A program made the position numbers and the translations under genes. A stretch of DNA of 64,000 nucleotides from Actinomycetota bacterium. GTDB lineage: Bacteria; Actinomycetota; CADDZG01; JAHWKV01. The stretch lies in contig JAUJPC010000001.1 in the NCBI GenBank assembly GCA_030447305.1, positions 886,506 to 950,505 of the forward strand. The letters run 5' to 3'. Under the pieces are notes generated by a model. The model was not told where the DNA came from. It did no database searches and saw only the letters and a program-made list of their open reading frames with translations. Positions 37,371 through 40,975 of this stretch are shown here, one piece after another; positions within the stretch are counted from its first letter, which is position 1, and every line of letters begins with the position of its first letter.

Positions 37371-37631
37371 ATGAGCAATGCGTCGATCAGGTTGTACGGC
37401 ACTCGATGGTGTCCTGACTGCGTCAGGGCGAAACGGGCGTTCGAGAAACATGGAGTCCCGGTGGAAGTAATAGATGTCGACCAGGACCGCAACGCTCAGG
37501 AGCTCGTTCTGCGTGCCAACCGCGGGATGATGAGCGTGCCCACCATTGTCTTTCCCGACGACACGGTTATGACGGAACCCAGCGCCGCGCAGCTGGAGGG
37601 CAAGTTCAAGGCGCTGGGGCTCGTGAGATGA
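37371..37631 (+). CDS. Glutaredoxin-like / mycoredoxin-like protein
   Basis: An 86-residue thioredoxin-fold protein with the active site CPDC (14-17) after RLYGTRW, the cis-Pro loop SVPTIVF and the C-terminal helix QLEGKFKALG. Mycoredoxin-type proteins with CxxC reduce mycothiol mixed disulfides in actinobacteria. The middle Pro-Asp pair differs from the GY of mycoredoxin-1. AAGGAAGGG precedes the ATG. Confidence 0.85.
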   Translation: MSNASIRLYGTRWCPDCVRAKRAFEKHGVPVEVIDVDQDRNAQELVLRANRGMMSVPTIVFPDDTVMTEPSAAQLEGKFKALGLVR

Positions 37632-37692: not shown

Positions 37693-38013
37693 TCAGGAAG
37701 TGTCCATCTCTTCTACGTAACGCTTGGGCTCTCCGATTCTCTGTACCGTCAGCCAGATCCCTTCCCGAGCAATGACGCGCTCGAAGCCTGGCGATTCATG
37801 TCCATCGATCATCAGGAAGTAGGAATCGCCCTCACGAATCTGCCGGTAATCATCCACGGTTACCTGGATCAGCTGCTCACACTGATCGCTCGCACACTCG
37901 CAGACGACCCACATCGTGTCGGTCGGGTGCGGACCCCTGCGTATGTTGATTCGATTGTTGATCTTGCGTCCGATCCTCATTGATAGCGCCGGCGTATGCG
38001 CTTGATTCTCCAT
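37693..38013 (-). CDS. Small CxC-x4-C protein, paralogue A
   Basis: A 106-residue protein of unknown function. The core reads WVVCECASDQCEQLIQVTVD, then YRQIREGDSYFLMIDGHESP and FERVIAREGIWLTVQRIGE. This Cys-x-Cys-x4-Cys plus beta-rich pattern recurs in small actinobacterial proteins of unknown role and may bind zinc. Residues 1-30 are basic and variable. A close paralogue lies at 38814 on the same strand, with an XRE regulator between them on the other strand. Confidence 0.7.
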   Translation of the reverse strand: MENQAHTPALSMRIGRKINNRINIRRGPHPTDTMWVVCECASDQCEQLIQVTVDDYRQIREGDSYFLMIDGHESPGFERVIAREGIWLTVQRIGEPKRYVEEMDTS

Positions 38014-38060
38014 GAGTCATTATTTTCCCCCCGGCAGTGATGTGCTGAAGTCCATTATGC

Positions 38061-38105
38061 GTTCCATCACTCTGTGTAACGATGCGCGAGTTCCATCAAT
38101 CTGTG
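38061..38105. repeat. Direct repeat pair, 29-bp period
   Basis: GTTCCATCACTCTGTG (38061-38076) and GTTCCATCAATCTGTG (38090-38105) differ in one base, with starts 29 bp apart. They lie 48-92 nt upstream of the start of the leftward gene at 38013, where an operator would be expected. Confidence 0.6.
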
Positions 38106-38130
38106 CGATTGCTGCAAACCGCGTTATCGC

Positions 38131-38211
38131 CGAGAAGCTTTTTCTCCGCCAAAGGCCGTAGGCCCTTCGCAGCAGGCAGAGACGCCGCCTACGTTGTTAA
38201 AGAGCTTCTCG
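38131..38211. repeat. Nested inverted repeats, about 80 nt
   Basis: The outer arms CGAGAAGCT (38131-38139) and AGCTTCTCG (38203-38211) enclose inner arms CGTAGGC (38157-38163) and GCCTACG (38187-38193). The element could fold into a long two-step hairpin. It sits in a 367-nt stretch (38014-38380) with no convincing gene; a short rightward frame across it (38082-38270) has no protein-like features. It could be a structured RNA or a protein-binding site. Confidence 0.55.
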
Positions 38212-38380
38212 CCACGGGCAAAACGAGCAGATCTACCAAAACTGCCGGCTTGAGCCCCAGCGGGAAATAGTCGAGTGCACACACCTCAGTAGTTTTATAC
38301 GTACTACTTGTGTGGACACCTGGCCAGAGCGTACGGGCGATGAACGTTTGAGAGTACACTCAGCTAAAAGGAAACGAGTT

Positions 38381-38449
38381 ATGAGGCCCATTACAGACGT
38401 AAGGGTTCAAGGCGCTGGTAGTTGCGCTACGTTGGCGGCAGGTGCATAG
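38381..38449 (+). CDS. 22-codon leader peptide immediately upstream of the XRE gene
   Basis: ATG at 38381 has an AAAAGG ribosome-binding site and a TACACT -10 box at 38355-38360. The frame encodes MRPITDVRVQ, then GAGSCATLAAGA, and ends with TAG at 38447-38449. The next base is the A of the XRE start codon, in the same frame. The layout suggests stop-restart coupling, or occasional readthrough giving a longer regulator. It may instead be only a non-coding leader. Confidence 0.4.
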   Translation: MRPITDVRVQGAGSCATLAAGA

Positions 38450-38824
38450 ATGGGACTCTTCGACCGCACTCTACGTACTCGCCGGGAGGAACTGGGACTC
38501 GGCCAGGCCGAGCTCGCCGACCGGGTCGGGGTAACCCAGCAGACGATCTCCCGCTGGGAAAACGGTGAAGTTGTGCCACCACCGAAGCGACTGGCGAAGG
38601 TCGCTCAGGCTCTGGGTCTCGATCTGGACCGGGTTCTAGCCTACGGCGGTTACTTGCCCGATGCGACCGACTGGCCAAGTTGGCACGTGCTGAACCTTTG
38701 TTATGAGCAGATGTCCAACTTGTCTGAGGAGGAGCTCTTGATGCTGGTCGAGCGAGCGTTACAGGAGATTCGCAAGAGGATCGTCAGTGACCAAAGAGGA
38801 AAACCATCAAGCGTTAGCAGATAA
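38450..38824 (+). CDS. XRE-family transcriptional regulator
   Basis: A 124-residue protein. Residues about 5-62 are a standard Cro/CI helix-turn-helix (RTRREELGLGQAELADRVGV, QQTISRWENGEVVPP, LAKVAQALGL). The C-terminal part (LNLCYEQMSNLSEEELLMLV and following) is a short helical dimerisation-type segment. The ATG directly abuts the stop of a leader frame. Its end overlaps paralogue B (38814) by 11 nt in convergent orientation. Flanking paralogues and upstream repeats suggest local control. Confidence 0.82.
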   Translation: MGLFDRTLRTRREELGLGQAELADRVGVTQQTISRWENGEVVPPPKRLAKVAQALGLDLDRVLAYGGYLPDATDWPSWHVLNLCYEQMSNLSEEELLMLVERALQEIRKRIVSDQRGKPSSVSR

Positions 38825-39212
38825 CGAATCGAGCCGGGAGCTCCTCTCCATAGTCGGACAGTGCCAGCTCTTGGGCGTAACGCTTGGCCTTTCCGGTTTT
38901 CTGCACTGTGAGCCGGGTCCCATCCCGAGCCACGATGCGCTCGAGACTTGACGACTGATGTCCGGCTACGACCAGGAAGTAAGAATCGCCCGCACGAATC
39001 TGCCGGTACTGGTCGACTGTTACCTGGATCAGTTCCTGGCAGTCGCCGTCCGCACACTCACCAGACGACCCAGCTGTTGGCGCTACCGGATTCGCACGCC
39101 GCTGGATTCCGTTGTTGATCTGGCGGCCCAGATCCTGATTCTTTGCGTTTGCGTAGGCGTTCGACTCGGAGTCTTTCAACAGTTTCCCCGGGAAGTGGAT
39201 AGGTTGAACCAT
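38814..39212 (-). CDS. Small CxC-type protein, paralogue B
   Basis: About 132 residues from the ATG at 39212. It aligns with the protein at 37693 over the whole core: SSGECADGDCQELIQVTVD, YRQIRAGDSYFLVVAGHQS, LERIVARDGTRLTVQKTGK, KRYAQE. The first Cys of the CxC pair is replaced (GEC instead of CEC), so a metal site would have one ligand fewer. The frame is open to 39428 but the extra region is unlike paralogue A. Function unknown. Confidence 0.6.
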   Translation of the reverse strand: MVQPIHFPGKLLKDSESNAYANAKNQDLGRQINNGIQRRANPVAPTAGSSGECADGDCQELIQVTVDQYRQIRAGDSYFLVVAGHQSSSLERIVARDGTRLTVQKTGKAKRYAQELALSDYGEELPARFVIC

Positions 39213-39364: not shown

Positions 39365-39835
39365 CTAGTCCTGAGCCAGCAGGCCGTAGGTGAAGCCCAC
39401 CACCGCGCTCAGCTTCCCTCTCCACCACACACCCTGGTTGCCCGGTATGGCGTTCCCGCCGTAAAAGAACCTGGCGTCTCTCAGATGGATGTAGCCGACC
39501 GACTGGTAATCGCTGCCCTCGAGCTCCTCCGGCTCCGCCTCGGAAGTTGGATCTGCTTCCTCCATTCCGGCCTGGAACATCGGATATCGCTGCACGGCCA
39601 CCTGCCGCATAACCTGAGCAAACGCTTCGCCGCCGGCCTCTTCAAGCACGTTGGCTATGCCATGGAAGTACTCGTTGCCGCTGACCACCCAACCGGACAC
39701 CAGGCCGCCGGAGATAGTGAGTGTGATTCCGAACGAGAACCCTGCTCGGTTGACCGAGTCGACAAGCACCGTCAACAGCCAGTCCCGCTCCAGAAGGTCT
39801 TCATCGGCCTCGCCTACCGGCTCGGAATCATCCAT
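39365..39835 (-). CDS. GvpU-like protein, orphan
   Basis: A 156-residue protein. FGITLTISGGLVSGWVVSG, NEYFHGIANV, YIHLRDARFF and GVWWRGKLSAVVGFTYG match, by recall, the layout of gas vesicle accessory protein GvpU. No gvpA or other gas vesicle gene is in the window, so it must act elsewhere or be a solitary family member. The ATG at 39835 has GGAGG 5 nt upstream and is preferred over the ATG at 39847 and the open frame to 39946. Confidence 0.55.
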   Translation of the reverse strand: MDDSEPVGEADEDLLERDWLLTVLVDSVNRAGFSFGITLTISGGLVSGWVVSGNEYFHGIANVLEEAGGEAFAQVMRQVAVQRYPMFQAGMEEADPTSEAEPEELEGSDYQSVGYIHLRDARFFYGGNAIPGNQGVWWRGKLSAVVGFTYGLLAQD

Positions 39836-39925
39836 CGTTGCCTCCATGCTGAAAGAGATGCTTCGGCGCCTTGGTAACCGGAGGATATCCGGCCGATTGC
39901 CGGCCGGCCGTGCTTGTATCCGATT

Positions 39926-40975
39926 ATGGAAGTTTCCAGATCGCAAGGCGCTCGCACCAGACTACCCCCCTCGAAGGTCGCGGCTCTGGCTGAAGAGTGG
40001 CTGGACGAGCGCAGGACCATCGGACGGGGCATCTCCAGCCAGACGGAGGCTGCCTACCGTAGGGATCTGACCAACTGGGCGACGATCATCGCCGAAATCG
40101 CCGGCAGGCCGTCTCCCCCGCCCGCCCAGGACGGCAGCAATCGTCCGGACCCCTTCCTTGGTGCCCTGGGGCGTCTGGACCTCGACGACCTCAGCCTGGA
40201 CAACGTCAAGCGGGCCCTCGCTCAAATGGCTCGCATGGATTACGCTCCCGCCAGCCGGGGCCGGATGCTCGCCGCGCTCCGGGGTTTCTGCCGGTGGCTG
40301 GTCATCGAAGGTCACATGGTTGCCGATCCAACGATCCATCTCGGCAACCCGGCCATTCCCAACCGTATGCCGTCTGCCTTCCTCGCCTCCGAGCTCGAAG
40401 CCATCGTGAGAACGGTTTCGCAGGCCGATCCTGCGGCACGCCTTCCCTGGCCTTCGCGGGACCGAGCATTGGTAGCCGTTCTTGCGGGTGCCGGCTTGAG
40501 GGCTTCCGAATGTATCAAACTAAAGTTGGCCGACCTGATCCGTGAGCAGCCTCCGATTCTCAAAGTCACAGGCAAGGGCAACAAACAGCGGCGGGTGCCC
40601 CTGCCCGTGGAGGTAGTTCAAGCCGTCGACGAGTACCTCGCGCAACGTTGCAAGCGTCTGGGAGAGCCCTCTCCCTCCGACCCCCTGCTGGTTCGCTACA
40701 ACGGCAAGCCATTCACCCGTGAGTCGCTCAACTACCACGTGTACCGCTGGATTCTTAGGGCCGGTGTACACAAGCCGGAGGGAGAGGCGGCGCACGCTTT
40801 TCGCCACACCTACGCCAAGGGCCTGGTGGCGAACGGAGTGCCCCTCTCCTCGGTTCAAGCGCTGCTGGGGCACGCCAGCCTCAACACCACCCAGGTTTAC
40901 CTACGGATGACCGGCGCGGAGCTGGCCGATGCCGTCCAGGCGGCGGAGGTTCGAGAGTACCTAAGAGCGACCTGA
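39926..40975 (+). CDS. Tyrosine recombinase, XerC/D-like
   Basis: A 349-residue site-specific recombinase. The N-terminal SAM-like core-binding domain (about 20-130) precedes the catalytic domain with Arg192 (GAGLRASE), Lys217 (TGKGNKQRR), His290 and Arg293 (HAFRHTYA), His316 (LLGHASLNTT) and the nucleophile Tyr325. All six catalytic positions are filled. It may be the chromosome-dimer recombinase or an element integrase; no repeated att sequence was found nearby. Start is ATG 39926, with TTG 39914 possible. The end overlaps the convergent gene by 15 nt. Confidence 0.9.
   Translation: MEVSRSQGARTRLPPSKVAALAEEWLDERRTIGRGISSQTEAAYRRDLTNWATIIAEIAGRPSPPPAQDGSNRPDPFLGALGRLDLDDLSLDNVKRALAQMARMDYAPASRGRMLAALRGFCRWLVIEGHMVADPTIHLGNPAIPNRMPSAFLASELEAIVRTVSQADPAARLPWPSRDRALVAVLAGAGLRASECIKLKLADLIREQPPILKVTGKGNKQRRVPLPVEVVQAVDEYLAQRCKRLGEPSPSDPLLVRYNGKPFTRESLNYHVYRWILRAGVHKPEGEAAHAFRHTYAKGLVANGVPLSSVQALLGHASLNTTQVYLRMTGAELADAVQAAEVREYLRAT

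Follow-up and report, generated by a model that had tools for sequence, protein, structure and literature searches.

The islet at positions 37693-39212 of the window, by which we mean the whole 64,000-nucleotide stretch of DNA analysed, is on balance probably a surviving, partly eroded copy of a lineage-specific pair consisting of an XRE-family regulator and a small CxC(H) protein. The latter stems from a signalling-linked family, and in this lineage it would have been re-targeted to the XRE protein. This reading draws on the paralogy of the two small genes, their copy number, the indel scars that they carry, the constraint on the XRE gene, the recurrent pairing of both gene types, the signalling context of the wider family and the invariance of three Cys and one His.

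Layout of the islet

The islet is located on contig C4 of a 2.88 Mb genome in 7 contigs and comprises the following features:

37693-38013, minus strand: CxC paralogue A, 106 aa; 2-nt deletion at ~37971/37972, N-terminus off the ancestral frame
38014-38449: A/XRE spacer, 436 nt, between divergent genes
38018-38032, minus strand: GGGGGG stretch and ATG (38020) in line with the ancestral reading frame of the A N-terminus (MTHGESSAYAGAINED...), which no longer coincides with the frame of the A core
38061-38076 and 38090-38105: two copies of a 16-nt direct repeat, GTTCCATCA(C/A)TCTGTG, one mismatch
38288-38308: inverted repeat AGTAGT-N9-ACTACT, single copy in the window, candidate operator
38381-38449, plus strand: 22-aa 'leader' ORF, its TAG abutting the XRE ATG
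38450-38824, plus strand: XRE-family regulator, 124 aa; HTH_3 plus a C-terminal ~45 aa common to its subfamily
38814-38824: tail-to-tail overlap of XRE and B, 11 nt
38814-39212, minus strand: CxC paralogue B, 132 aa; +1 insertion at ~39062, 4-nt deletion at ~39081, 1-nt deletion at ~38868

Coordinates and strands agree with the initial annotation, which had placed A and B leftward around a rightward XRE gene, and the end of this gene shares exactly 11 nt with B. The paralogy that it proposed is borne out by an alignment of 105 residues at 50% identity (E 8e-36). A and the XRE gene are divergent, XRE and B convergent, so that co-transcription as a pair is excluded by orientation. The XRE gene clearly belongs to the XRE/Cro-CI regulators (HTH_3, PF01381; 65.8 bits versus a cut-off of 23, 3.4e-18). 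Its C-terminal region defines a subfamily that, among 396 genomes of the phylum, occurs only in the host's bacterial family.

Frameshift scars and selective constraint

Codon-level comparison of five copies located the scars. B reads SGEC-x4-C, A and the other copies VCEC-x4-C. A 1-nt insertion in B (TCTGGTGAG in place of TCTGCGAG of the intact A copy) is offset by a 4-nt deletion upstream, so that ~20 nt are read in a different frame and WVVC becomes GSSG. The absence from B of one Cys of the CxC pair, which had been noted from the letters, is therefore correct and is the trace of this compensated frameshift. The 11-nt overlap with the XRE gene is likewise a by-product of B's lengthened frame, since the 1-nt deletion at ~38868 carries B past its ancestral stop. 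In A, the 2-nt deletion precedes the core; the start at 38020, whose G-rich stretch is better placed, is now out of frame. Sister copies are damaged by one TAG, by two TGAs or by a ruined XRE partner, and the majority of copies, A and B among them, bear frame-disturbing indels or stops. We infer decay rather than assembly error, because the long genes around the islet in the window have open frames.

The XRE gene, by contrast, is intact and under constraint: Nei-Gojobori dN/dS is 0.10-0.18 in comparisons with the window copy and 0.3-0.55 for A and B. The end branches of the tree measure 0.49 for A and 0.40 for B compared with 0.07-0.08 for two sister copies. In the host genome, the A/B branch has been multiplied and is eroding.

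These data also nourish the strongest alternative, according to which A and B are effectively pseudogenes, the XRE protein works solo and the islet as a whole no longer has a common function. The +1/-4 frameshift and tail-lengthening indel of B, the N-terminal deletion of A, the stops in sister copies and the quicker protein change of A and B all fit this view, as do XRE genes standing alone in genome G001 and at C6:233353. However, the core of A is open and retains all four candidate ligands, and its dN/dS against sister copies is 0.35-0.55, not 1; we thus regard this alternative as serious yet unlikely. Because A, B and most sisters carry indels or stops, the XRE-CxC pair may nonetheless be largely decayed. 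A could still act in such a pair; B, minus its first ligand, is probably non-functional or altered.

XRE-CxC pairing in the genome and the phylum

The genome contains nine sites matching A, and for seven of these E is below 1e-14. Relatives of the XRE gene are found at C6:278829 (81%), C6:233353 (68%, no CxC gene beside), C2:532197 (broken into two frames) and C6:175539-175678 (ruined). Together these form four convergent XRE-CxC units (window, C6:279, C2:532 and C6:176), with A as an additional copy without a convergent XRE gene. Two of the other units are 82% identical to each other over 1.2 kb of DNA, and the XRE-to-B DNA of the window (38433-39195) is 77-79% identical to these two. In G005, which represents a second genus within the bacterial family, XRE and CxC genes lie head-to-head, 548 bp apart and divergent like A and XRE. 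The CxC proteins of G005 and C6:263 are sister to the five-member A/B sub-group (support 98/94 and 99/96). In G001, a member of the XRE subfamily stands alone.

The XRE subfamily was found in 3 of the 396 phylum genomes, and a CxC gene adjoins five of its seven copies; the pairing is therefore lineage-specific and not due to chance. No CxC gene was found in three same-genus genomes, and a profile search of genome contigs with the islet's own sub-group gave no confirmed match. Gene order around the islet is not conserved in a same-genus genome used for an empty-site comparison. The expectation that neighbouring XRE genes would recur was borne out in part: the pairing is repeated at three more places in the genome, one with a ruined XRE gene, and in G005, but most genomes with the CxC family lack the XRE gene. 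The initial annotation would have taken paralogues without XRE partners in most genomes as a sign of chance adjacency. Such is indeed their distribution, yet the adjacency is not fortuitous. As far as the genomes compared indicate, the pairing is particular to the host's bacterial family and the CxC family itself is mostly XRE-free.

That the CxC paralogues and the XRE gene were duplicated independently and became neighbours by chance is already disfavoured, and we consider it very improbable. Outside the A/B sub-group, XRE occurs within 1.5 kb at the G005 locus only (37 loci scanned), and the window spacer shares no sequence with other copies, as independent duplication would allow; however, the homology of the window to other loci covers both genes together, the 1.2 kb shared by two other loci argues likewise, and in G005 the two genes are separated by just 548 bp.

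The small-protein family and its predicted structure

We define the family by four residues, CxC-x4-C and the His of G-H-E; the C-E-C-x4-C motif and this His are invariant in the alignment of wider-family relatives. A keeps all four (C38, C40, C45 and H72). B lacks the first Cys and is, by homology, a paralogue rather than an intact family member. The family is present in 23 of the 396 phylum genomes searched, and its named relatives come from Actinomycetota, several from Thermoleophilia. Pfam and NCBIfam gave no match above cut-off for A or B (B has only a sub-cut-off GSH-S_ATP match in Pfam, E 0.1; A has zero Pfam matches), and PADLOC and PHROGs no convincing one. A wider-family profile search of PDB sequences returned nothing significant, and in the literature we found no description of a C-E-C-x4-C...G-H-E family.

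AlphaFold2 models of A (pLDDT 82) and of one relative (pLDDT 90) display the same alpha/beta fold: a helix, two strands with the CxC-x4-C loop, a helix, three strands and a helix. In both models, G-H-E occupies the loop preceding the last two of the three strands. The inter-strand loops holding Cys and His fit a metal site, and in view of these predicted positions and of residue conservation the CxC protein may bind metal. Structure prediction, proposed earlier as a check for metal sites, placed the candidate ligands in such loops; a Foldseek search of the PDB with both models gave no match at E <= 0.001.

Signalling neighbourhood of the wider family

Across many actinobacterial lineages, the family forms operons or tail-to-tail pairs with partner-switching genes, yet none of the libraries used models it. 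For 8 of 27 CxC genes, a HATPase_c_2 gene is no more than 260 bp away (expected 0.26, P ~1e-10; the eight cases are drawn from six genera), and 5 of the 27 have an ANTAR regulator at a distance of up to ~1 kb (expected 0.04, P ~2e-10); these P values treat related genomes as independent, with two genera contributing twice. By Pfam, the neighbour domains include SpoIIE phosphatase, STAS, ANTAR, receiver and HATPase. A scan of 37 loci with one profile set detected a signalling gene within 1.5 kb in 22, with 29 matches in 105 kb near versus 4 in 222 kb far; its profiles were seeded partly from the same neighbours, and the 27-gene counts for HATPase and ANTAR provide the test free of this bias. 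A tail-to-tail arrangement with the CxC gene, within ~15 nt, is seen for many HATPase neighbours and is also the one that B has with XRE. The genome's own divergent CxC copy at C2:236916 (L015:6491-8261) directly follows a SpoIIE phosphatase gene and has a shortened ANTAR response-regulator gene opposite it.

Wider-family relatives thus probably assist partner-switching and response-regulator signalling as accessory proteins. Genes of partner-switching modules (SpoIIE/RsbU phosphatase, STAS antagonist, RsbW-like HATPase kinase) and ANTAR genes are immediate neighbours of many A/B relatives, and A and B look like an additional small component of such systems. The modules' own domains are all missing from A and B, and in the islet no HATPase, STAS, SpoIIE, ANTAR or response-regulator gene is near either of them. 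The small-protein family is a testable candidate for a missing stress-signalling part; the islet, a lineage-specific and partly decaying offshoot, matters less, but is a worked example of a paralogue losing a metal motif via a compensated frameshift.

Three further arrangements were observed. An IS transposase gene stands between a sister XRE-CxC unit and a broken HATPase_c_2 gene with an internal TAA (G000:C6:280659-280880; L012:8701-8853), which is 1.1 kb away from that unit. A Thermoleophilia contig carries two CxC-family genes in tandem (L104:2135-2833). In one Thermoleophilia/Gaiellaceae branch (L095, L096, L097, L098, L100 and L101), the CxC gene has a fixed but different place, beside serA- and aminotransferase-like genes and not beside signalling genes.

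Proposed mechanism

We propose that the three Cys and one His of the CxC(H) protein hold a metal ion, probably zinc, and that the protein binds to a signalling partner. For the majority of relatives, this partner would be the HATPase kinase, STAS antagonist, SpoIIE phosphatase or ANTAR regulator encoded alongside; in the host's bacterial family, it would be the XRE protein instead. The small protein might then modulate XRE control of its own locus, of distant genes or of both. Metal binding, contact between the XRE and CxC proteins and the direction of regulation are proposed parts of this scheme.

A role in stress, suggested in the initial annotation, is plausible via the partner-switch and response-regulator signalling of relatives, but by no other route. 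The view of the islet as a self-contained module was not upheld: the family is normally XRE-free, no shared operator or conserved leader was found, and most copies are frameshift-scarred. Nor did a defence role find support, as the islet lacks a specific match to the PADLOC anti-phage systems and the XRE gene matches only their generic HTH. A toxin-antitoxin or defence module, with XRE as antitoxin or regulator and the CxC proteins as toxins or effectors, is highly unlikely: small genes adjoining XRE, multiple copies and transposase genes surrounding one sister copy would suit it, but the genes are convergent or divergent on opposite strands rather than a co-transcribed type II pair or operon, A and B fit none of the toxin models, relatives elsewhere reside in signalling operons, and viral, plasmid and phage collections contain no CxC relative. 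Mobile or phage cargo was rejected on the same absence from viral contigs, plasmids and phages.

Comparison with known systems

In Streptomyces, WhiJ (XRE), BldB (DUF397) and AbaA (HATPase_c) form paralogous clusters (PMC10294661), and the XRE-DUF397 pair Scr1/Scr2, a suspected toxin-antitoxin system, proved not to be toxin-antitoxin-like but to consist of regulators activating antibiotic production (PMC6262351). As in these systems, multi-copy small proteins adjoin XRE regulators here, and anti-sigma-type HATPase genes are found in the neighbourhoods of the wider CxC family. Unlike in XRE-DUF397 pairs, the small protein is not DUF397, A being without a Pfam match and B without one above cut-off; a search of G000-G005 for PF04149 (DUF397) found none, a search whose positive control likewise gave no match. 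The genes are arranged tail-to-tail or head-to-head, instead of the small gene following XRE on the same strand, and the genomes with HATPase partners are not those with XRE partners, bar the broken HATPase gene near one copy. The XRE and CxC(H) pair is thus most likely analogous to WhiJ-BldB-AbaA, and by any test run not homologous.

The islet offers a possible parallel to these long-puzzling clusters. Going further, we tentatively raise a reading that we find more doubtful than the eroded pair itself: the family could be an unrecognised metal-binding part of actinobacterial partner-switch/ANTAR signalling, perhaps serving the HATPase kinase or SpoIIE phosphatase as an adaptor gated by zinc or redox state. 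Here it would have been rewired to XRE, providing a second, independent equivalent of WhiJ-BldB-AbaA.

Spacer and flanking genes

The 'upstream repeats' described for the spacer amount to the one 16-nt direct repeat at 38061/38090 and short inverted repeats, and to nothing more. Other XRE genes lack an upstream counterpart of the 'leader peptide' ORF (38381-38449), which is probably a chance reading frame. An RNA element was rejected, as folding of the 421-nt stretch does not surpass that of shuffled sequences (z -1.26) and the sole Rfam match (18.5 bits versus a gathering score of 40) is located outside the spacer. No spacer motif common to the window XRE gene and other XRE copies was found. 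AGTAGT-N9-ACTACT is absent from these copies, and a shared XRE operator was not found; at 38288-38308 the repeat is a possible operator of the window copy.

Downstream of position 39212, a gene at 39365-39847 (minus strand) encodes a GvpU-like protein (NCBIfam NF041667, 73.5 bits versus a cut-off of 70). No relative was found in the seven nearest genomes, and a search of the genome for GvpA (PF00741), whose positive control gave no match, found none. A tyrosine recombinase gene (39926-40975, plus strand; Phage_integrase, 6.6e-29) adjoins the islet. On the other side, a mycoredoxin-like glutaredoxin with the active site CPDC (37371-37631, plus strand) is convergent with A, their stop codons 61 nt apart.
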